From the NCBI GenBank assembly GCA_001769505.1, contig MEOF01000040.1, positions 1-64,000 on the forward strand: a stretch of DNA of 64,000 nucleotides, read 5' to 3'. The stretch's first letter is position 1. Each line of letters opens with the position of its first letter. This document shows positions 35,734-54,066 of the stretch, piece after piece. The DNA is from Bacteroidetes bacterium GWF2_33_38 (lineage in GTDB: Bacteria; Bacteroidota; Bacteroidia; Bacteroidales; GWF2-33-38). The notes beneath the pieces were generated by a model. That model saw only the letters and a list, made by a program, of their open reading frames with translations, did no database searches and had not been told where the DNA came from. Both the position numbers and the translations under genes were made by a program.

Positions 35734-36882
35734 TTATATAAACATTTTTTGCAACAAGCCTTTTTTCCATTGTTCCATTAGGGTTATTTTATTTTCAGCG
35801 TTGCTTATTTTTTCATCAAGTGCTGATAGAAAATTGGCGATTTTGGTTTGCTCGGAAAAACAAGGAAGTTGAATTTTAATTTTATAAATTGTAGAAGCAC
35901 TTAAACTTGGAACGCCTGATGCTTCATTATATAAATACCAATTTATATTTTGAAATTGAAAATATAACCATTTAGGAAATGTATTAGAAAAAACATCTGT
36001 ATAAAAAAGAGTATCAACAGACCAAAATGGAGTTTCCATATAAACAGGTTTATCAATTGTTCCTTTTCTACCAATAAGAACAGATGCTTTATTACATAGA
36101 AAAGAGTTTGTTTTACCAATTATACCGCCTGTCCCTAAAATTGGATATTTACCATTTTCATCTATAACTTGTTTTTGGTCTTTTCCATACATTATTTTTG
36201 CTAAATCAGAAAGATTTTTTTCTTCCCAATCTTCAAAATCGTTACCATTATCGTCTTTAAATCTCAATTTTTGAGAGAAAATTTGTTGCATTACACCTTT
36301 TTTGTATTGCGATAAAAGTTCTTTTTTTTGTTTTAATTGCGTGAGTTTTTCGTCAACTGCTGTGAGAAATGTTGCTATTTTGGTTTGTTCGGGAAGTGAT
36401 GGAATGTTAATTTCAAGATTTTCTAAATCACTTTTCACAAAACCTTTAATTGATGTGCCTTGATTAAATTCTAATAATTTATTGGTTTTGAATTTAATTA
36501 AATATGCTAAAAAAATATAATTGTCCAATTCAACAATTAGATTGGTAAAATCTTGACTTGTACAAATTTCTGTTTCATTTATTGCTACTTTGCCAACACC
36601 AACTCTTGAAACAATTAAAATACTTTTTGCAGGAATTAGTTTTGTCGCAGTCTGTGAAATGGCTTCTCTTGAAATAAATCTTGATTTATTAATTTTATAA
36701 ATGCTTTCATCTGAAATATCCGAACTTGAAATCCAAGGAACATCTCCATTCCAAAAATTTGCATTTTTTGTAGATGGAGTTCCTCCTCCGATAAAATTTC
36801 CAATTTCGCCCAATTTTTTATTTTCCCACGTATCAGAAAATTCAGGAAACCGCAATTTTGGTATATTGTTGTTTTGGTTCAT
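35734..36882 (-). CDS. hsdS: Type I restriction-modification specificity subunit HsdS
   Basis: 382 residues with the two-TRD layout: TRD1 from about 20 (LGEIGNFIGGGTPSTKN, WISSSDISDE), the central conserved helix (IPSLPEQTKIATFLTAVDEKLTQL, about 155-178), TRD2 from about 215 (IMYGKDQKQV, LIGRKGTIDKP) and the distal conserved helix (FSEQTKIANFLSALDEKIS). HsdS gives DNA specificity to HsdM and HsdR. Neither partner gene is in the window, so this is an orphan, or it supplies an alternative specificity to a system elsewhere. A truncated second copy of its 5' end lies upstream and the whole segment is rich in repeats. Confidence 0.9.
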   Translation of the reverse strand: MNQNNNIPKLRFPEFSDTWENKKLGEIGNFIGGGTPSTKNANFWNGDVPWISSSDISDESIYKINKSRFISREAISQTATKLIPAKSILIVSRVGVGKVAINETEICTSQDFTNLIVELDNYIFLAYLIKFKTNKLLEFNQGTSIKGFVKSDLENLEINIPSLPEQTKIATFLTAVDEKLTQLKQKKELLSQYKKGVMQQIFSQKLRFKDDNGNDFEDWEEKNLSDLAKIMYGKDQKQVIDENGKYPILGTGGIIGKTNSFLCNKASVLIGRKGTIDKPVYMETPFWSVDTLFYTDVFSNTFPKWLYFQFQNINWYLYNEASGVPSLSASTIYKIKIQLPCFSEQTKIANFLSALDEKISNAENKITLMEQWKKGLLQKMFI

Positions 36883-38585: not shown

Positions 38586-38731
38586 ATTAAAATTTACCAA
38601 ACTCGTTAGTTTATAAAGTTTGTAAAATTGAATTAAAGTTTAGAAAGAAAATTTTGAATTTGTTTGGAATAGCATGGATAATCTTATAAGAGTATCTGAA
38701 AAAATAATAGGCTTGAACAGTATAATTTTTG

Positions 38732-38739
38732 TACCTTTG
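38732..38739 (+). promoter_or_regulatory. -7 element TACCTTTG for the pseudouridine synthase gene
   Basis: TAnnTTTG 18 bases before ATG 38758. It lies inside the longer open frame that begins at 38674, so it decides the start in favour of 38758. Confidence 0.5.
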
Positions 38740-38757
38740 TTTAAAATAAATCAAGAA

Positions 38758-40047
38758 ATGAGAACGAGAATCCCTAAAGACAACAATAAACGTTCATTTG
38801 TAAAAAATGATGAAAAGTCGCAAGCAATTGAGCAAAAACCTTATAAAAAAAGAGACCAAGAAAAATATTCGGACAAAGACACTAAACCCATTGTAAGAAA
38901 ACGACGTGATGATGACTCAAAATCTTTGGATAGAAAACCATTTAAAAAAAGTCCGTCACACGATAAATACCCTGCTAAAGAATCGACTTCATACGAACGA
39001 AAACCTTACAAAAAAAGAGCGCAGGACGAAAAATATTCGGATAAAGACACTAAACCTATAGTAAGAAAACGACGTGATGACGACTCAAAATCGTCTGAAT
39101 CAAAACCATTTAAAAAAAGTCCATCTCACGATAAGTATTCTAATAATGATACTCCTTCTCGTGAAAGAAAAAGAGATTCGCAAACTTCAACCGAAAGAAA
39201 ACCTTATAAGAGAAGAGATTCAGACGATAAATCTACCGAAAAAGATAGGAAATATTCAGAACATAAAAGAAATCCAAAACCTAGATTAGGGAAAACCGAA
39301 AACAGTAAACGAAAAACATTTAAAAGCGATGAGCCTATTCGATTAAATAAATACATTGCTAATTCTGGTATTTGCTCTCGTCGTGAAGCCGACGAATATA
39401 TAAAATCGGGTGCTGTTACAATTAACGGAGTAGTTGTTAAAGATATGGGCATAAAAGTTCATCGGAGCGATAATGTGCAGTTCGAAGGCAAACACTTAAA
39501 CCCTGAACGAAAAGTATATATTTTGTTGAATAAACCTAAAGATTACGTAACAACGTTGGAGGATAAACATGCTGAAAAAACAGTACTCGATTTAATTAAG
39601 GGAGCTTGTTCCGAAAGAGTTTATCCTGTTGGCAGACTTGATAAAAATACAACTGGTGTTTTGCTTTTAACTAACGATGGTGAATTAACTAAGTATTTGA
39701 CACATCCATCGCATAATAAAAAGAAAATTTACCATGTTCATTTAGATATTCCGTTTAATATGAATGATTTTGATAAACTGCTTCAAGGTATTGAGCTTGA
39801 AGATGGTTTTATAAAAGCTGATGAATTGCAATACGTTGACCCAGCTGATAAAAGCCAAGTCGGTGTCGAAATACATTCTGGACGAAACCGAGTTGTACGT
39901 AGAATTTTTGAACACTTCGGATATACAGTAAAAAAACTCGATAGAGTCGTTTTTTCAGGCTTAACCAAATATAATCTTCCTCGTGGGAAATGGCGTTTCT
40001 TAACCGATAAGGAAATTAACATGCTTAAAATGGGAGCTTTTGAGTAA
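38758..40047 (+). CDS. rluB: Pseudouridine synthase, RluB/RsuA family, with basic repeat extension
   Basis: 429 residues from ATG 38758 (MRTRIPKD). The frame is open from 38674 but a -7 promoter element lies between. Residues 1-190 are a low-complexity Lys/Arg/Asp/Ser extension with two copies of a 55-residue unit (KYSDKDTKPIVRKRRDDDSK) and a partial third. An S4 domain follows (IRLNKYIANSGICSRREADE), then the RluB/RsuA catalytic domain with GRLDKNTTGVLLLTNDGEL (catalytic Asp) and SGRNRVVRRIFEHFGY. It would modify a uridine in 23S (RluB) or 16S (RsuA) rRNA. The tail is probably unstructured and RNA-binding, as in other Bacteroidota RluB proteins. Confidence 0.85.
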   Translation: MRTRIPKDNNKRSFVKNDEKSQAIEQKPYKKRDQEKYSDKDTKPIVRKRRDDDSKSLDRKPFKKSPSHDKYPAKESTSYERKPYKKRAQDEKYSDKDTKPIVRKRRDDDSKSSESKPFKKSPSHDKYSNNDTPSRERKRDSQTSTERKPYKRRDSDDKSTEKDRKYSEHKRNPKPRLGKTENSKRKTFKSDEPIRLNKYIANSGICSRREADEYIKSGAVTINGVVVKDMGIKVHRSDNVQFEGKHLNPERKVYILLNKPKDYVTTLEDKHAEKTVLDLIKGACSERVYPVGRLDKNTTGVLLLTNDGELTKYLTHPSHNKKKIYHVHLDIPFNMNDFDKLLQGIELEDGFIKADELQYVDPADKSQVGVEIHSGRNRVVRRIFEHFGYTVKKLDRVVFSGLTKYNLPRGKWRFLTDKEINMLKMGAFE

Positions 40048-40303: not shown

Positions 40304-40311
40304 TACATTTG
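40304..40311 (+). promoter_or_regulatory. -7 element TACATTTG for the repeat-channel gene
   Basis: TAnnTTTG 24 bases before ATG 40336. No TTG at ideal spacing. The gap 40048-40303 shows nothing else. Confidence 0.4.
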
Positions 40312-40335: not shown

Positions 40336-42084
40336 ATGATAACCAATTATCTTAGCTATAAAATTAAAATAAAAGACCTTGAGTTTGTTACAGAAGATGG
40401 ACGAAAATTCCCTAACACTGCAGCAATTTCTTTTTACGACATAAATAAAAAAGAAACCGATTATATCGAAAAGGCATTTGTTGAACAAGAAACGGTTTTT
40501 CAATTAATTGATAATGGAGAAGATATAAATATTAATGAATGTTATATCGAAAACTTTTCGTTAAAAAATTATCGAAAATCAAGAAACATCGAAAAAGACG
40601 AAATCGTAAAAATAAAAAACTTTTCGGCAATTGATTGTTTTTTCGATTCACACGGAGAAACCGATTTTTCTTTTGCTGTTTTTCAAGGAGATTTTGCTAA
40701 TTTTTCAAAGGCACATTTTATAAATGGCGGTATAAATTTTGATTCCGTTAATTTCGAAAAAGCCGATGCCGACTTCAGTTATGTATATTTCAACAATGGA
40801 AATGTAGATTTTGCCAATGTGATTTTTAGCGGAGGCGATATTACGTTTAAGAATACGCTTTTTGGAGAAGGGGAGAAGAATTTTCAATATACCGATTTTG
40901 GAAAAGGAAAACTGAGTTTTATAAATACTGATTTTGGAAATGGTGATGTTTTGTTCCTGAATTCCGATTTTAGCGATGGAGAAGTTTCGTTTAAAGTCGC
41001 TCGATTTGGAGACGGAAAAGTCGATTTTCATTTCTCTAAATTTGGAAAAGGAGATATTAGTTTTGAGCAAACCGACTTTGGAACAGGGAAAAAAGATTTT
41101 CGAAAAATAGAATTTGGCTCCGGAAAAGTAAATTTTAACCGAGCTGTTTTTGGCGATGGAGATATTTCTTTTGAAGCCTGTCAACTTTCGAAGGGGAAAA
41201 TAACATTTAAAAAAACTATTTTGGGAAACGGACTCAAAAGTTTTGAACTACTCGAATTTCACGATGCCGAGATTTTAATAGAACGTGTGGATTTTGGAGT
41301 CGGAAACGTTTCGTTTAACAAATCGCATTTAAAAACCTTATCTCTTAAATCGTGCCATTTGGATAATTATATTGATTTGCGAGTTGCTAAATGCGATTAT
41401 GTCGATTTATCCGATACCATAGTTCGCGACATTTTGGATATTCAGCCCTACGATTTTGACGTTAAAATTACTAACCTGAATATAGTAGGAATGAGGCTGC
41501 TTGGGCGAATTGATATCGATTGGTATAAAAATAAAGTTGACAAAATAATTGGTCTACAAACAGATACTACGCATTTCGAAAAAGCCGAACAATTTAGAAT
41601 TTTAAAAGAAAATTATGGAAATATAGGATTGTATAATTTCGAAGATTTAGCTTATGTGCAATTCAAACGATTTGAACAAAAATCAGATTTTCATGTTGCA
41701 TTATCTAAAAATAAATTACACGGTATTTGGCAGTTTCCTGCCTACGGTTTTAAATGGTTAATGTTTGATAAGGTTGGATTATATGCGACTTCTCCATCTC
41801 GCGTTTTTCTGAGCACAATGGTTACATATTTATTTTTCTCGTTAATTCATACCATTTTGCCATATATGATGGATACTGCAATTAACTGCATTGACCCGGC
41901 TACTGGTTTCATGTCCAGATTTTTAAATACAATGTATTATAGTGCAATCACATTCTTTACAATTGGTTATGGCGACTGTTCTCCTGTCGGATTTTTACGA
42001 GTAATCGCAAGCCTTCAAGGATTTATAGGTGTGTTTATGATGTCGTACTTTACAGTTGCTTTTGCCAGAAAAATATTGAGATAG
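40336..42084 (+). CDS. 12-residue F-repeat solenoid fused to a K+ channel pore
   Basis: 582 residues. Residues 1-105 are a soluble N-terminal domain. From about 112 to 328 the chain follows a strict 12-residue period with Phe (or L/I) spaced 5 and 7 apart, FxxxxFGxGxxx (for example DFGKGKLSFINT; Phe at 164, 171, 176, 183, 188 and so on to 279), about 18 repeats. A pentapeptide-like stretch follows (LSLKSCHLDNYIDLRVAKC). The C-terminus is a two-helix channel module: helix 490-511, pore helix 529-541, selectivity filter TIGYGD 542-547, helix 552-576. The filter is the canonical K+ signature. No signal peptide, so the solenoid is cytoplasmic. Fusions of pentapeptide repeats to this pore module are known; this exact repeat I do not recognise. 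It stands alone. Confidence 0.8.
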   Translation: MITNYLSYKIKIKDLEFVTEDGRKFPNTAAISFYDINKKETDYIEKAFVEQETVFQLIDNGEDININECYIENFSLKNYRKSRNIEKDEIVKIKNFSAIDCFFDSHGETDFSFAVFQGDFANFSKAHFINGGINFDSVNFEKADADFSYVYFNNGNVDFANVIFSGGDITFKNTLFGEGEKNFQYTDFGKGKLSFINTDFGNGDVLFLNSDFSDGEVSFKVARFGDGKVDFHFSKFGKGDISFEQTDFGTGKKDFRKIEFGSGKVNFNRAVFGDGDISFEACQLSKGKITFKKTILGNGLKSFELLEFHDAEILIERVDFGVGNVSFNKSHLKTLSLKSCHLDNYIDLRVAKCDYVDLSDTIVRDILDIQPYDFDVKITNLNIVGMRLLGRIDIDWYKNKVDKIIGLQTDTTHFEKAEQFRILKENYGNIGLYNFEDLAYVQFKRFEQKSDFHVALSKNKLHGIWQFPAYGFKWLMFDKVGLYATSPSRVFLSTMVTYLFFSLIHTILPYMMDTAINCIDPATGFMSRFLNTMYYSAITFFTIGYGDCSPVGFLRVIASLQGFIGVFMMSYFTVAFARKILR

Positions 42085-42281: not shown

Positions 42282-44555
42282 GTGCCTAAATTTTTAAAAA
42301 TAAGTTTTGTTTTTTTCTCGATAATTGTATCGCTTTCAACTCAGTGTGTTTCTGATGAGTTGATAAATAAGTCATTAACCATTGATACCGCTACGTTTAA
42401 TAAAATTTATCATACTTTTGAAAAGTATTATGAGTCAGAAAATTATGATAGTGCTTATTATTATGGTCAGCAGGTTGTTTTACACTCATATAATTTGTTT
42501 GAACGAAAAAAGTCCATTACATACTCGTACATGGGAGAAATAGCCCAACGAAAAAATTTGTACACAGATGCTATTTTTTACTACAAAGAAGCGATGGCAA
42601 TTTATAATAAAACCGACGATTATAAATCAATAGCCTCAATAAATTCAACAATTGGCTATTTGCTGTATGTTACAGGCGAATACGAAGAAGCTTCTGTATT
42701 ATTGTCAAAGAACGAATCGTTTTGCTTTAAACACAATTTAAAGACCTCTTTAGCCCGCACATACATGGGATTAGGCTTTGTGTACAGAGGTTTAAATGCT
42801 TTTGGAAAAGGGCTTGAGTTTTTTTCTAAGTATTTAGAAATAGCATATGAATTAGATAATTATCAAGATATTTCAACCGCTTTAAACGAAATAGGAAACG
42901 TTTATTTGCTTTCAGGTGATTATGAAAAAGCAATTTCGTATCAAATTAAATCGATTGAGGTAAAGGAAGAATACAAAGATACCTTGGCTCTTTGCTATTC
43001 GTACAACGATATTTCGCTTTCGTATAAGTATTTGGGAAAATACGATTTGGCTTTGGAATATTTATTAAAGTCGGAAACAATAGCTATTAATTTTAAGTAC
43101 GATTATGTGCTGACAGCAGTTTACATAAATATTGCCGATATTTATAATCAAAAAGGAGATTTTACAAAAGCAGAAATCTATTTGAATAAAGCCTTAGCCA
43201 TTGCGTTGGGATTAAATCTAAAAAGCGAATTATCGGCTGTTTATGCTGAATTTAGTAGATTTATGGCTGAAAAAGGCGACTATAAAAAAGCCTACGAGTA
43301 CCAAGAGTTAACTACTTTGTACGCTGACTCGCTGCTCAACGAAAATGTTCATAAACAACTTAACGAACTTGCTGCCAAATATGAATTCGACAAAAAGCAA
43401 AAAGAAATAGCTTTGTTATCGAAAGATCAGCTTCTTCAACAAAATAAAATTACACAACAAAAATACATTCAATATACCTTGATATTCGGAATTGTTGTTT
43501 TTGTGATTGTATTAATAATTTTGGTTAACAGATATCAAATCAAACAGCGAGCAAATAAAGAATTGGCAAGAAAAAATGAAGAGATTTTTCAACAAAAAGA
43601 AGAGATAAGTTCTCAACGTGATGAGATTGAATACCAGCGTGATAAATTGTTGGATTTGAACTCCGAGATTTCAACTCAACGCGACCAGGTTACTTTACAA
43701 CGCGACGAAATTGTTGTGAAAAATAAAGAAATTAACGATAGCCTTAATTACGCAAAACGAATTCAGCAGGCATTGTTGCCCGATATTTCAAAAATATTTA
43801 ATGAAATAAATTCTAGTCTAGGAGAGTTGGGGGAGCCATTTGTTTTTTTTCGACCTAAAGATATAGTTTCAGGCGATTTTTATTGGATAAGAAAAAAGAA
43901 TAATAAGGTTTTTCTAACAGTAGCCGATTGTACTGGACATGGTGTGCCTGGTGCTTTTATGAGCATTCTGGGAATATCAGCATTAAATGAAATTATCAAC
44001 AACAACATTACTGAATCATCACAAATTTTATTGCAATTAAAAGCTTACATCATAAATTCGTTGCATCAAACCGGAAAAATGGGTGAAATGCAAGACGGAA
44101 TGGACATGGCTTTTTGTATAATCGACAGCGAAAATCGCACAATTGATTTTGCGGGAGCAAACAACTCGCTTTACATAGTTAAAAGTTTGCCAAGTTCATC
44201 AAGTTATAAAGTAGACGAAAAAACAAATTCCAACTTTATGAACTTTGAACTTTATGAACTAAAAGGAGATAAAATGCCATTGGGGATTCATGTTTCGGAA
44301 AAACCATTCAAAAGTGTATTTATAAATTACTTAGAAAACGACAGAATATATTTATTTACTGATGGCTATAAAGACCAAATTGGCGGTGTAAATAATAAAA
44401 AACTCAAGACCGTAAATTTTAAAAATAAAATTTTACAAATAAGCCTTCTGTCAATGACTCAACAAAAAGAAGAATTGACTAACTATTTTGAACAATGGAA
44501 GGGTTCAAACGAACAAGTTGACGACGTGCTTGTTTTAGGCATTAAACTTAAGTAA
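42282..44555 (+). CDS. TPR protein with membrane helix, coiled coil and SpoIIE phosphatase
   Basis: 757 residues from GTG 42282. Signal-like N-terminus (FLKISFVFFSIIVSLSTQC), then seven or so TPRs (about 50-360; for example YDLALEYLLKSETIA), a membrane helix (about 398-417), a coiled coil (about 425-490; EEISSQRDEIEYQRDKL) and a PP2C/SpoIIE domain (about 495-757) with FRPKDIVSGDFYW, VADCTGHGVPGAFMS, GMDMAFCIID and DDVLVLGIK, which supply the metal-binding aspartates. The TPRs lie in the periplasm and the Ser/Thr phosphatase inside, so it is probably a transmembrane signal receiver acting on an anti-sigma or anti-anti-sigma partner. No partner gene is adjacent. Confidence 0.85.
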   Translation: MPKFLKISFVFFSIIVSLSTQCVSDELINKSLTIDTATFNKIYHTFEKYYESENYDSAYYYGQQVVLHSYNLFERKKSITYSYMGEIAQRKNLYTDAIFYYKEAMAIYNKTDDYKSIASINSTIGYLLYVTGEYEEASVLLSKNESFCFKHNLKTSLARTYMGLGFVYRGLNAFGKGLEFFSKYLEIAYELDNYQDISTALNEIGNVYLLSGDYEKAISYQIKSIEVKEEYKDTLALCYSYNDISLSYKYLGKYDLALEYLLKSETIAINFKYDYVLTAVYINIADIYNQKGDFTKAEIYLNKALAIALGLNLKSELSAVYAEFSRFMAEKGDYKKAYEYQELTTLYADSLLNENVHKQLNELAAKYEFDKKQKEIALLSKDQLLQQNKITQQKYIQYTLIFGIVVFVIVLIILVNRYQIKQRANKELARKNEEIFQQKEEISSQRDEIEYQRDKLLDLNSEISTQRDQVTLQRDEIVVKNKEINDSLNYAKRIQQALLPDISKIFNEINSSLGELGEPFVFFRPKDIVSGDFYWIRKKNNKVFLTVADCTGHGVPGAFMSILGISALNEIINNNITESSQILLQLKAYIINSLHQTGKMGEMQDGMDMAFCIIDSENRTIDFAGANNSLYIVKSLPSSSSYKVDEKTNSNFMNFELYELKGDKMPLGIHVSEKPFKSVFINYLENDRIYLFTDGYKDQIGGVNNKKLKTVNFKNKILQISLLSMTQQKEELTNYFEQWKGSNEQVDDVLVLGIKLK

Positions 44556-44783: not shown

Positions 44784-46037
44784 ATGTTAACTAATATGGT
44801 TATGAAAGAATATATTTCTCTATCTGAAGCAGCAGAATTATTAGGAAAAAGCAAAGAAACTTTGCGTCGTTGGGATAGAGAAGGAAAGTTAACCGCTGTG
44901 CGTGAACCGATGAGTAATTATCGAGTTTACAAAAAAGATCAATTCGATTTGTTTTCAAATTTTTTATTGAAAAATGAAATAGAAGAAGTTTCAAACTATG
45001 CAAAAGCCGAAAAAGAATATACCGTTTTAGAATTATTTGCAGGAGCAGGAGGTTTGGCAGTAGGACTTGAAAAAGCTGGTTTAAATTGTGTCGCTTTGAA
45101 TGAAATTGATAAATCGGCTTGTCAAACTTTACGCAAAAATCGTCCATTTTGGAATGTTTTAGAAGGAGATATTAAAGATTATTATTTTTCGGAATATTAC
45201 AATAAAGTTGATGTTGTAACTGGAGGATTTCCTTGTCAAGCATTTAGTTATGCAGGAAAAAAATTAGGTTTAGCTGATGCTCGAGGAACTTTATTTTATG
45301 AATTTGCGAGAGTTGTAAAAGAAGTTAATCCACCAATTTGTATTGGCGAAAATGTTCGTGGTTTATTAAGTCACGAAAATGGAAAAACTTTGCAAGGAAT
45401 GATTTCAATTTTAGATGAAATTGGCTACAATGTAGTTCCTTATGAAGTTTTAAAAGCTATAAATTTTAAAGTTCCTCAAAAACGAGAACGATTAATTTTG
45501 GTTGGAATTAGAAAAGATATTGATATAAAATACGAATATCCAACACCATTTAAGAAAATTTACACACTTTCTGATGCTTTGAAAAAAAGCGAATTATTCG
45601 ATTGTGATGTTCCTCAATCTGAAGGTTCAAAATATCCAAAACATAAAAAAGAAGTTTTAGATTTAGTTCCTCAAAAAGGCTATTGGCGTGATTTACCTTT
45701 AGATATTCAAAAAGAATTTATGGGACAAAGTTTTTATTTGGGCGGTGGAAAAACTGGAATGGCACGGCGTATTGGTTGGGATGAACCGTGTTTAACATTA
45801 ACTTGCAGTCCAGCACAAAAACAAACAGAAAGATGTCATCCAGAAGAAACTCGTCCGTTTACGGTTCGTGAATATGCCCGAATTCAAACTTTTCCTGATG
45901 ATTGGCAATTTGAAGGTTCAATTTCGCAACAATATAAACAAATAGGAAATGCGTTTCCAGTTAATTTGGCTCGTGAAGTTGGATTTTCGATTGTGAAATT
46001 TCTGAATAATTTCTATCATAACTTTAAAAACAAATAG
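44784..46037 (+). CDS. DNA (cytosine-5) methyltransferase with N-terminal HTH
   Basis: 417 residues from ATG 44784; ATG 44802 (MKEYISLSEAAELLG) is an equally good start. Residues of about 8-60 are a MerR/excisionase-type helix-turn-helix (ISLSEAAELLGKSKETLRRW). The C5-methyltransferase motifs follow: I LELFAGAGGLAVG, IV GGFPCQAFS with the catalytic Cys, VI GENVRG, VIII PQKRERLILVG, X QIGNAFPVNLA. Its TRD region is short. It protects host DNA against the endonuclease encoded 2 bases downstream; the HTH may let it repress its own promoter, as with HTH-carrying M.EcoRII/M.MspI-type enzymes. Confidence 0.9.
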   Translation: MLTNMVMKEYISLSEAAELLGKSKETLRRWDREGKLTAVREPMSNYRVYKKDQFDLFSNFLLKNEIEEVSNYAKAEKEYTVLELFAGAGGLAVGLEKAGLNCVALNEIDKSACQTLRKNRPFWNVLEGDIKDYYFSEYYNKVDVVTGGFPCQAFSYAGKKLGLADARGTLFYEFARVVKEVNPPICIGENVRGLLSHENGKTLQGMISILDEIGYNVVPYEVLKAINFKVPQKRERLILVGIRKDIDIKYEYPTPFKKIYTLSDALKKSELFDCDVPQSEGSKYPKHKKEVLDLVPQKGYWRDLPLDIQKEFMGQSFYLGGGKTGMARRIGWDEPCLTLTCSPAQKQTERCHPEETRPFTVREYARIQTFPDDWQFEGSISQQYKQIGNAFPVNLAREVGFSIVKFLNNFYHNFKNK

Positions 46038-46039
46038 AT

Positions 46040-46876
46040 ATGACAAAACAAGAAAGAGTTGCTTTAGCAATTAAAGAAGTTGTTTCAAAAATGATGAATA
46101 GAGTTATGGATAACGTAATGATAAAAGATCCATTTATCAAAGAAAAACATCAAGCTGCAAAACCACTTTATGCAGCTTTAGTGCCTGATGAAATTTTTAA
46201 AGGTTCGCATTTCGAAAGACGGTTTGTAACTCCTTTTGGAAGTGTTTGGGAACGATTAGCTCAAGTTGTTGCAATTGAAGCTCACGGAAATTGCACAATG
46301 GGACATAATGTAAGTGGAATTGTTGGAAGCGAAAGTTTAAGAAGAATTCAAGAAGTATTAAATAGACTAGAACATAACAAAAAAGGAGAATTTAAATTTA
46401 AACCTGATTGGAAAAGCGAACTTAAATATATTCATGAAGGTGGTGGAGAGCCAATTCCTGTTAGTGTAACTTGTGATATTTTTATTCATAATAAAGAAAC
46501 AAATACAAAGTATGCTTTTGAATTAAAAGGTCCTTTACCAAATAGCGACCAAACAAAAGTAAGTAAAGAAAAAATGTTCAAATTATTGGCAATGAAACCA
46601 AAACAAGTTGATTTTGCATATTATGCCTTGCCTTATAATCCTTATGGAAAAAAAGAAGATTATAAATGGGCTTTTCCTTTAAGATGGTTTAATATGCAAG
46701 AAGATGAGTCTGTTTTAATCGGAAATGAATTTTGGGAATTAATTGGAGGTGCAGGAACTTATAATAACTTCATCAAAGAAGTTAATCTTTTAGGACAAGA
46801 ATATAGAGATAGAATTTACAGAGAATTTTTAGAAATTGAACCTCCATTGAATTCAGAAAGCAATTTATTAAAATAA
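46040..46876 (+). CDS. TdeIII-family type II restriction endonuclease
   Basis: 278 residues. It matches the TdeIII family along its length: LYAALVPDEIFKGSHFERRF, GSVWERLAQVVA, the PD-(D/E)xK-like CDIFI...YAFELKG (about 147-173), PNSDQTKVSKEKMFKLLA, YYALPYNPYG, and WFNMQEDESVLIGNEFW. The family is, from memory, tied to GGNCC-type sites; the exact site here is not known. It starts 2 bases after the first methyltransferase and ends 10 bases before the second, so it is embedded between two protective enzymes. No frame damage, so probably active. Confidence 0.85.
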   Translation: MTKQERVALAIKEVVSKMMNRVMDNVMIKDPFIKEKHQAAKPLYAALVPDEIFKGSHFERRFVTPFGSVWERLAQVVAIEAHGNCTMGHNVSGIVGSESLRRIQEVLNRLEHNKKGEFKFKPDWKSELKYIHEGGGEPIPVSVTCDIFIHNKETNTKYAFELKGPLPNSDQTKVSKEKMFKLLAMKPKQVDFAYYALPYNPYGKKEDYKWAFPLRWFNMQEDESVLIGNEFWELIGGAGTYNNFIKEVNLLGQEYRDRIYREFLEIEPPLNSESNLLK

Positions 46877-46886
46877 AATTTGAGAA

Positions 46887-48419
46887 ATGAAACAAAATAA
46901 ATTTACATTCATTGACCTTTTTTCAGGAATTGGAGGTTTTAGAATGGCCCTCGAAAATATTGGTGGAAATTGCTTAAATTTTAGCGAAATAAATAAAGAT
47001 GCAATAAATACATATTGTACAAATTTTGATGAAGATTTTGAATATAATTTAGGAGATATTACCAAGATAAAAAAATTGCCAAATCACGATTTACTAACTG
47101 GTGGTGTGCCTTGTCAAAGTTGGTCAATTGCAGGAAGAAATCTAGGTTTTGATGACGATAGAGGACAATTATGGAACGATACAATTTATCTTCTTAATCA
47201 ATCAAAACCAAAAGCATTTATTTTTGAAAATGTTAAAGGTTTAGTTGACCCAAGAAATAAAGAAGCATTTTCTTATATATTAAACCGCATTAGAGAGGCA
47301 GGATATTTTGCAAATTATTATTTAATTAATTCTTATGATTATAGCGTTCCGCAAAATAGAATGCGTGTATATATTGTTGGTTTTAGAGAAAAAGAATTTG
47401 CTGAAAAATTTAATATCCCAAAACCATTAAAAAACAAAATACGATTAGGTAATATATTGTCAAATTTTGAAGTTAAATCAATACAAAATGAACCAATTGT
47501 TCAGAAAAATTTATTTGGCGAAAATATTACAACTCGAAATATGAGTTTATCAAATAGCAACGGGTTTAATGACTATTTTTTATTTAATGATTTACGAAAT
47601 GGTCATTCAACAATTCATTCTTGGGATATTTTAGATACAACTGAAAGACAAAAAAATATTTGTTATTTATTATTAAAAAATAGACGCAAAAGTGCATATG
47701 GTAATTTAGATGGAAATCCTTTGTCATATAAACATTTTAAAGAATTAGATAATTCAATATTAGAAAATGAACTAGAAGAATTAGTTACATTAGACATATT
47801 AAAAAAAGAAGGATATTCATTTTCAATTAATGATTTTGACAAAAAAAATATTTCAGAAGATGAAAAATGTATTCTAGATTGTTCTATTAATAATTTCTTA
47901 TTTGTTGAGAATTTAAAAACTGATAGAAATTTAAAGTTAAAAAAAATATCAATTTCTAAAACATTAAAAACATTACAAGAAAAAGGAGTAATTTCAAGTT
48001 GTGAAAATAGATATGATTTTAAAAACACAAAAATAAGTACTGGTTTATTTGGTATTAATAGAATATTTCTACCAACTTCAAATATTTTTCCAACATTGGT
48101 TGCAAGCGATACAAATGATTACATTTCAACTAAAGAAATTAATGCAAAAACCCCAATTGAATACAAAAATATTTTTATTGAAGAAATTTTTAAAAGAGGA
48201 AATTTCCGAAAGATAACAAAAGAAGAAACTTGTCTTATTCAAGGTTTTCCCAAAGATTTTAAATTGCCCGAAAATAGAGCAAGATGGATGAAACTTTTAG
48301 GAAATAGTGTTTCAGTTCCAGTTATTGAGATGTTAGGAAAAGCTATTTTTGAAACAGGCATTTTCGACTTAAATGAGAATGTTTTAGAATATAAGCCTGT
48401 CGCAATGAGTAGCTATTAA
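46887..48419 (+). CDS. Second DNA (cytosine-5) methyltransferase
   Basis: 510 residues. Motif I FIDLFSGIGGFRMALE, IV GGVPCQSWSIAGRN with the catalytic Cys, VI FENVKG, VIII PQNRMRVYIVG, and X LLGNSVSVPV. Between VIII and IX is a long target-recognition region (about 190-440) with RNGHSTIHSWDILDTTERQK and a Lys/Glu-rich, very AT-rich stretch (47.6-48.0 kb). It ends 17 bases from the convergent fdhA gene. With the first methyltransferase it could protect the two strands of an asymmetric site, or a second site. AT-richness above the neighbours suggests the cassette was acquired. Confidence 0.9.
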   Translation: MKQNKFTFIDLFSGIGGFRMALENIGGNCLNFSEINKDAINTYCTNFDEDFEYNLGDITKIKKLPNHDLLTGGVPCQSWSIAGRNLGFDDDRGQLWNDTIYLLNQSKPKAFIFENVKGLVDPRNKEAFSYILNRIREAGYFANYYLINSYDYSVPQNRMRVYIVGFREKEFAEKFNIPKPLKNKIRLGNILSNFEVKSIQNEPIVQKNLFGENITTRNMSLSNSNGFNDYFLFNDLRNGHSTIHSWDILDTTERQKNICYLLLKNRRKSAYGNLDGNPLSYKHFKELDNSILENELEELVTLDILKKEGYSFSINDFDKKNISEDEKCILDCSINNFLFVENLKTDRNLKLKKISISKTLKTLQEKGVISSCENRYDFKNTKISTGLFGINRIFLPTSNIFPTLVASDTNDYISTKEINAKTPIEYKNIFIEEIFKRGNFRKITKEETCLIQGFPKDFKLPENRARWMKLLGNSVSVPVIEMLGKAIFETGIFDLNENVLEYKPVAMSSY

Positions 48420-53007: not shown

Positions 53008-54066
53008 TTATTTTGTGTGCTTTATAAATAATTCTTTAACTTTTTGAGGTGTTAAATTTGCAGCAACCTTTTCGTTAATCATAATGCAAGGAGCTAAGCT
53101 GCAAGCTCCAATACATGCAACACTTTCGACCGAGTATTCTAAATCATCGGTTGTTTCGCCTTCTTTAATTTTTAATTGCGATTCAATTTCTTCTAAAATT
53201 CGAGGGGCTCCTTTTACATGGCATGCTGTGCCTCGACAAATCATGATATGATTTTTTCCTTTGGGTTTAAATCTAAATTGTGCGTAGAAAGTTGCTACTC
53301 CGTATATGTTGCTCAATGGAACTTTCGTAAATTTGGCAATTGCTTTCATCGATTCTTCTGATAGAAAACCAAATTCATTTTGAACTTTTTGAAGCAAGGG
53401 AATTAATTCTTCTTCGCTTCCTTTAAAGTTCGAAAAAATATAATCATAAGGTGTTTGCATATGCGTTTTATTTATTCTCAGTTCGTTGATATTATTAACA
53501 TCTTCAGGATAATTTACATTCGCAAAACAGTGTTCGAAGTTGGATGGAATTTCGCAGTAAAAAGCCTGTCGGGTATCGATAAAAAGTCTGATTTTATGGA
53601 ACTTCGATGTTTCGATAAAATTGATTAATTCAGGCAAAACATTTTTTGAATAAAGGGTAAATAAGGGCTCAATTGAATTTTGTTTAGTAGGAACTAAAAT
53701 TTCAGGATTTTCAATAAAATATTGATTTACAAAATAATTAACAACTTCTTCGTTGATATTTGGCATGTCGCAAGCTATGACAAAACAAGTCGAATTATTA
53801 GCATTTTTTAGGGCTGCGTGAATTCCTCCAAGTGGTCCAATGTTTTTATATTCGTCGCCAACAATACGAACATCCTTAAAATTCATATACGAATCGGGTA
53901 AATTTGTAACGATAATTATATCTTCGAATAAGGCATTAAGAATTCGAATATATTTTTTTATTAGAACTTCTCCGTTAATTTCCATAAAAGCCTTATCAAT
54001 TCCATTGAAACGAGAGTTTTTGCCTCCTGCCAAGATTGCACAACTGATGTGTTTGAATTTTCTCAT
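53008..54066 (-). CDS. MobA-NuoE fusion (molybdenum cofactor guanylyltransferase + [2Fe-2S] subunit)
   Basis: 352 residues in one unbroken frame. Residues 1-195 are MobA: AILAGGKNSRFNGIDKAFM (nucleotide-binding), GPLGGI, CDMPNIN and the EPLFTLY segment. MobA links GMP to molybdopterin to form the MGD needed by formate dehydrogenase. Residues 205-352 are NuoE/HydC: LLQKVQNEFGFLSEESM, GVATFYAQFRF, and the [2Fe-2S] ligands Cys277, Cys282 (CRGTAC) and Cys318, Cys322 (CIGAC). An in-frame ATG at 53460 (Met203) could also start a free NuoE. First gene of the operon. MobA fused to this subunit is unfamiliar to me and ties cofactor synthesis to the enzyme. Confidence 0.85.
   Translation of the reverse strand: MRKFKHISCAILAGGKNSRFNGIDKAFMEINGEVLIKKYIRILNALFEDIIIVTNLPDSYMNFKDVRIVGDEYKNIGPLGGIHAALKNANNSTCFVIACDMPNINEEVVNYFVNQYFIENPEILVPTKQNSIEPLFTLYSKNVLPELINFIETSKFHKIRLFIDTRQAFYCEIPSNFEHCFANVNYPEDVNNINELRINKTHMQTPYDYIFSNFKGSEEELIPLLQKVQNEFGFLSEESMKAIAKFTKVPLSNIYGVATFYAQFRFKPKGKNHIMICRGTACHVKGAPRILEEIESQLKIKEGETTDDLEYSVESVACIGACSLAPCIMINEKVAANLTPQKVKELFIKHTK

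Follow-up and report, generated by a model that had tools for sequence, protein, structure and literature searches.

A predicted two-helix potassium channel with a crown of 12-residue pentapeptide-type repeats in a Bacteroidales genome

The window analysed here, the 64,000-nucleotide stretch at the start of contig MEOF01000040.1 from Bacteroidetes bacterium GWF2_33_38, encodes a protein in which a long and regular 12-residue repeat is joined to a two-helix potassium pore. The combination raises the question of what kind of repeat this is, and of what might control a channel that carries it. The reading we favour, with a probability of about 0.6, is a K+-selective channel gated by a cytoplasmic ligand and presumably tetrameric, with the architecture of HalA: crown, linker, outer helix (TM1), selectivity filter and inner helix (TM2).

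The gene and its predicted parts

The open reading frame begins with ATG and runs through 582 codons with no internal stop. Its parts and the element preceding it are the following.

40304 to 40311, + strand: TACATTTG, putative promoter element just 5' of the start codon, from a reading of the sequence
40336 to 42084, + strand: whole gene of the solenoid-crowned two-helix K+ channel, 582 aa, defined by the ORF, full-length homologues and alignment A1
40336 to 40629, + strand: N-terminal cap domain, residues 1-98, mixed beta/alpha by DSSP of the AlphaFold model
40630 to 41520, + strand: predicted beta-solenoid crown, residues 99-395, with 24-residue coils (AlphaFold)
40666 to 41349, + strand: strict 12-residue repeats FxxxxFGxGxxx, residues 111-338, 19 registers, PF13576 type with Phe spacing 5+7
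40846 to 41205, + strand: most conserved coils, residues 171-290, by entropy per position
41536 to 41787, + strand: predicted helical linker, residues 401-484 (alignment and AlphaFold)
41794 to 41868, + strand: TM1 (outer helix), residues 487-511
41908 to 41976, + strand: pore helix and selectivity filter (PF07885)
41959 to 41976, + strand: TIGYGD filter, residues 542-547
41995 to 42081, + strand: TM2 (inner helix), ending in the near-invariant RKILR that forms the exact C-terminus

The octamer upstream of the start codon might serve as a promoter element, as it fits TAnnTTTG, the Bacteroidota -7 promoter consensus. The architecture, the type of repeat, the filter and the lack of any cytoplasmic tail or domain after TM2 are established at the level of sequence and predicted model.

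The pore corresponds to Pfam Ion_trans_2 (PF07885) over residues 512-580, with E=1.3e-10 and 41.4 bits against a cut-off of 22.5, and the same family is matched by 19/19 members of alignment A1. A preliminary description of the locus, made from the letters of the window, had proposed a two-helix pore with a TIGYGD filter, and the PF07885 match bears this out. The filter, T[IV]GYG[DE], is kept in all 97 family members (97/97), and in all 97 the C-terminus lies 41-42 residues past the start of the filter motif and reads RK[IV]LR or RRVLR. The linker carries a conserved QFRxLK..GxYxxEDxAYxxFKR and the beginning of a DxxGLYATxPxRV segment. Neither a signal peptide nor a hydrophobic segment before residue 480 is apparent in the protein. 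Because it has no apparent signal peptide, and because TM2 ends in the basic RKILR, which should lie on the cytoplasmic side, we infer that the crown is cytoplasmic. Four crowns would form a collar.

The repeat and the fold of the crown

The periodicity of the crown is exact. Residues 106-340 contain 67 identities at lag 12, where 5000 shuffles gave 18.3 +/- 3.9 and at most 33; at the same lag there are 30 Phe-Phe pairs. Aligned in register, the repeats start at residue 111 and continue to about residue 338, with Phe in positions +0 and +5, so that the 12-residue period of the preliminary description holds, while its count of about 18 repeats becomes 19 registers. Tandem Repeats Finder did not detect the array in the DNA, where it is too diverged, which indicates that the repeat is old and maintained at the protein level; judging from the sequence, it is kept by selection acting on the protein.

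The same description had called the repeat undescribed and unlike pentapeptide repeats. The channel protein alone indeed has no repeat-family match in a Pfam search, and to this extent the claim stood. Its homologues, however, match PF13576 (Pentapeptide_3, cut-off 27) with 58.9 bits in L020, 42.6 in L015 and 42.4 in L016, and 8/19 members of A1 match it at E<=1. An artificial sequence made of the pure 12-residue consensus scores 34.1 bits as a control, rising to 96.5 bits when each repeat is cut to 11 residues; a control of pure five-residue repeats prefers PF00805 to PF13576. In a tblastn search, Streptomyces plasmid proteins with the annotation "pentapeptide repeat-containing" proved to carry the 12-residue repeat of the channel as well (E down to 2e-28); they score 100.7 and 78.0 bits on PF13576. 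The Streptomyces proteins WP_329583145.1 and WP_124283611.1 have an identical F-x4-F-x6 repeat with GGTVxF-type turns; they differ in lacking the K+ pore, and their hydrophobic stretches are, from a reading of the sequence, N-terminal. Since homologues, consensus controls and Streptomyces proteins all match PF13576, the repeat belongs to that known type and is one residue longer (Phe spacing 5+7, not 5+6), and a novel repeat family is ruled out. By way of the homologues, the repeat was thus assigned at high score to an established Pfam family whose fold is known, and the claim of an undescribed repeat is to be given up.

Weak Pfam matches to Reov_VP3_MTase2, Cadherin_3 and CDtoxinA were judged to be chance. 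The Knotted Solenoid fold, a triangular and dimeric structure exclusive to a specific bacterial group (Brevundimonas), with pentapeptide repeat proteins as its nearest relatives (PMC13123833), was set aside on that description.

AlphaFold modelled the full protein from a 19-member alignment with a mean pLDDT of 90.4, and the crown mostly at 91-97. The solenoid fused to a K+ pore that the preliminary description had proposed is thereby recovered as a confident single-chain model. The strands return at intervals of 24 residues (169/193/217/241 and 259/283/307/331), so that each coil is built of two repeats and has four Phe positions. In canonical pentapeptide proteins such as Qnr and MfpA a coil has 20 residues in four pentapeptides, and the crown, with 24, falls outside that definition. 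It shares with PF13576 and with QnrB1, MfpA, EfsQnr and AlbG the Phe pairs set five apart in a solenoid, and differs from them in a linker between the pairs that is longer by one residue and in the fused K+ pore. The model indicates that PF13576-type repeats evidently accept a regular 24-residue coil.

Searched against the PDB with Foldseek, the full model has HalA (9nyi) as its top match, with E=1.5e-4 and probability 1.00, the only one with E<0.001. The pentapeptide proteins 6fls and EfsQnr come next, and AlbG, QnrB1 and MfpA are within the top ten. No match to viral models fell below E=0.001. Over the full model the TM-score to HalA, normalised by query length, is only 0.22, and the two proteins accordingly differ in overall arrangement and in the size of the crown. 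To see whether the HalA match reaches beyond the solenoid, residues 400-582 were modelled separately from 49 sequences (pLDDT 87.3). This linker-plus-pore model aligns with HalA over its whole length, in 194 columns with a TM-score of 0.68 and an rmsd of 4.4, where the other matches listed reach a TM-score of about 0.42. Because HalA ranks only fifth by E-value in this search (Foldseek E=0.027), the weight of the match rests on TM-score and coverage.

Distribution, conservation and gene neighbourhood

Clear homologues combining solenoid and pore occur in about 20 of 99 relatives' genomes, full-length or nearly so and 38-64% identical; the reading frames of all the matches listed are uninterrupted by stops. 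Across 84,980 species genomes, a scan confirmed 348 related stretches, of which 80 were kept. Nearly all of these are full-length, and they come from Bacteroidota MAGs, three of which bear the title Chlorobiota. The expectation that the same fusion would recur in several genomes is amply borne out. The family looks vertically inherited, and belongs to Bacteroidota, mostly Bacteroidales. Among 396 genomes sampled across the phylum, the full protein was seen only in the genome under study, and since the other matches are mostly of the pore alone, this sample says little about distribution beyond the order. Phage records and viral contigs gave no match to the channel, and a phage or viral gene is ruled out.

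Members fall into a short class (88 counted), almost all of about 580 aa, and a long class (n=6) of 648-671 aa, longer by some 84 residues or seven repeats. The long-class crowns (L012, L013, L014, L016, L019 and L020) have about seven extra repeats, equivalent to 3.5 coils, which would leave the N-terminal cap rotated by half a turn compared with the short class. Within the repeat array of the crown, the mean entropy per position is 0.93-1.40 bits at residues 171-290 and 1.83-2.04 bits in the coils just before them; residues 171-290 include conserved polar or charged positions such as K220, E244, R245, R256, N268 and R269. These coils are a candidate interface for a ligand or for another subunit.

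Two loci at the margin of the family deserve mention. A related large protein (L102, 510-2411) has a pore-like end with the filter TLGFGN, and might have a non-K+ or dead pore. In another genome (G016), a short channel remnant (L103, 1375-1515) lies between addB and trmD, and is a decayed copy at the ancestral place. One might ask from the degraded filter of the former, and from a genome that retains just a remnant beside addB, whether the protein described here is itself non-conducting or a relic. The preservation of the filter and C-terminus in every full member (97/97), together with frames unbroken in all listed matches, leaves that idea with hardly any credit.

The gene is often found beside addB, which encodes a DNA-repair nuclease. 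Of about 78 loci with flanking sequence, 55 have an AddB-like nuclease gene upstream in the same orientation; in 47 it is the immediate neighbour, and the gap is often 35-170 bp. Farther upstream, 35 loci have the radical SAM gene TIGR01212 and 30 a RecB-like AddA. On a tree of 90 members the adjacency is present at 57 tips, deep clades included, and changes 13 times, a pattern consistent with an ancestral arrangement that was lost on several occasions. In the genome under study addB is on contig C69 and the channel on C40, and the link is missing from its clade and from those long-class members that the tree includes; in some loci it is broken by an oppositely oriented superoxide-dismutase-like gene. 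An obligatory operon is ruled out by these absences and breaks, and the link is suggestive without being proof of a shared role.

The channel might be functionally tied to AddAB, a nuclease acting at double-strand breaks, its crown sensing the enzyme or the DNA fragments it makes, and its flux reporting DNA damage or phage DNA. The frequency and depth of the adjacency, the company of the TIGR01212 and AddA genes and the ability of HalA-type crowns to respond to DNA all point in this direction. The absences and breaks just described point the other way, as does the presence of addB in 94/99 genomes against about 20 with the channel, and shared ancestry of gene order could account for the linkage; we consider such a tie rather improbable. 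A step more doubtful is its extended form, a chromosomal, vertically inherited relative of HalA, ancestrally co-expressed with AddAB, whose crown would sense DNA ends, single-stranded DNA fragments or the status of AddAB and switch K+ flux. Were it true, a HalA relative sensing DNA would be the housekeeping counterpart or the ancestor of the defence channel.

The genomic context of the channel is housekeeping in character and conserved in many relatives, and no nucleotidyltransferase is apparent beside it. In the window it lies between an RluB-like gene and a gene for a TPR-SpoIIE phosphatase. The former (38674-40047, + strand) encodes an RluB-like pseudouridine synthase, whose N-terminal extension is long and charged and holds a 168-bp tandem repeat at 38835-39134. 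The latter (42282-44555, + strand), with TPR and SpoIIE-type phosphatase domains, lies directly downstream of the channel and is not among the neighbours conserved in the relatives compared. Farther along, 44784-48419 (+ strand) is a complete-looking type II restriction-modification island, with a TdeIII-type restriction endonuclease between two C5-cytosine methylases. An HsdS-type specificity subunit (Methylase_S, E=7e-50) is encoded at 35734-36882 (- strand), with no HsdM or HsdR ORF recognised nearby. At 53008-54066 (- strand), next to NuoF- and formate-dehydrogenase-like ORFs, a MobA-like NTP transferase is fused to a 2Fe-2S thioredoxin-like (NuoE-type) domain.

Gating and comparison with HalA and other channels

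Under the favoured reading, a cytoplasmic ligand would bind the conserved coils at residues ~171-290, and the movement it causes would reach TM1 and the pore by way of the linker and the invariant DxxGLYATxPxRV hinge. Gating would act through TM1 or the linker, since nothing follows TM2. The preliminary description had suggested a cytoplasmic collar gated by a ligand or by DNA, and by analogy this is reasonable, because HalA is a pore with a pentapeptide-like crown that was solved with oligodeoxyadenylate. For the ligand, the guess we rank first is a nucleic acid or nucleotide, prompted by the HalA analogy and the frequent linkage to addB; it stays a guess because the crown is net acidic (32 K+R, 46 D+E), a composition that lends no support to general DNA binding.

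Pentapeptide solenoids commonly bind proteins, and the channel could equally be gated by a protein partner, an ordinary small ligand, an ion or membrane tension, the solenoid serving as a scaffold and the likeness to HalA being architectural only. The acidic crown, the vertical inheritance and the lack of any defence or nucleotidyltransferase partner agree with this, as does the protein-binding habit of such solenoids. Nothing specific indicates a ligand of that kind, and the strong conservation of the central coils calls for a defined binding partner, so we hold ordinary gating to be unlikely, if far from negligible.

HalA itself is the effector of the Hailong anti-phage system (Tan et al. 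2025, as cited in PMC13275509 and PMC12265719). According to these citing papers, poly-dA adducts made by HalB block the HalA ion channel (PMC13275509), and oligodeoxyadenylate is a negative regulator of immune activation (PMC12265719). The structure 9nyi is of HalA in complex with oligodeoxyadenylate, with four identical chains, and the visible stretch of its crown sequence is itself pentapeptide-like. If the protein described here were a true HalA, it would be a Hailong effector held shut by oligodeoxyadenylate from the HalB nucleotidyltransferase. The top fold match, the superposition of linker and pore, a weak match of one family member to the HalA model NF051894 (E=3.3e-4) and the restriction-modification genes near the channel could be read in this way. 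The channel protein itself, however, has no match to NF051894 at E<=1 (cut-off 250 bits), and HalA does not appear in the lists of the 60 best sequence matches to alignments A1 and A2. The HalB model NF051895 finds only short and weak matches in the genome under study, the best with 20.1 bits against 190, and none over its cut-off in the 99 genomes searched. With no nucleotidyltransferase apparent alongside and a housekeeping context conserved in many relatives, identity with HalA is highly improbable, and since neither model reaches its cut-off a Hailong system was rejected. Judging from the models, the channel most likely works like a HalA-type channel, and it should not be filed as HalA.

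HalA has been presented as a DNA-controlled effector of phage defence. The present family has the same architecture, is non-mobile and lacks HalB; it is near constant in size, has an invariant C-terminus and often adjoins addB. With it one can ask whether K+ channels crowned by a solenoid form a broad class that serves ordinary roles in the cell, and whether the sensing of DNA by such crowns is older than defence.

Literature searches for the combination of pentapeptide repeats with Ion_trans_2 or a potassium channel found no account of it. Ordinary pentapeptide K+ channels of Bacteroidota (L101 and L109) are alike in having a pentapeptide domain, a linker with GYGxxP and an Ion_trans_2 pore, and differ in their canonical five-residue repeats and short crowns. 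One of them (L101, 660-1976, genome G028) scores 37 bits on the HalA model, whose cut-off is 250, and matches the HalA crown. Kir7.1, KirBac and Kv channels have a similar pore segment, Kir7.1 being the top sequence match (E=4e-7), whereas the gating domain here is N-terminal on TM1. KirBac and RCK channels carry domains after TM2, and the channel here has no such domain. With HalA it shares, as far as the models go, the order of a pentapeptide-like crown, a helical linker and a two-helix pore. It differs from HalA in a far longer crown of 12-residue repeats, in a length of 582 against 371 aa, and in a family that is vertically inherited and does not lie beside a nucleotidyltransferase. The type of repeat and the crown-linker-pore architecture are thus already known; the long crown, its 12-residue repeats, the absence of HalB and the vertical inheritance are what sets this channel apart.
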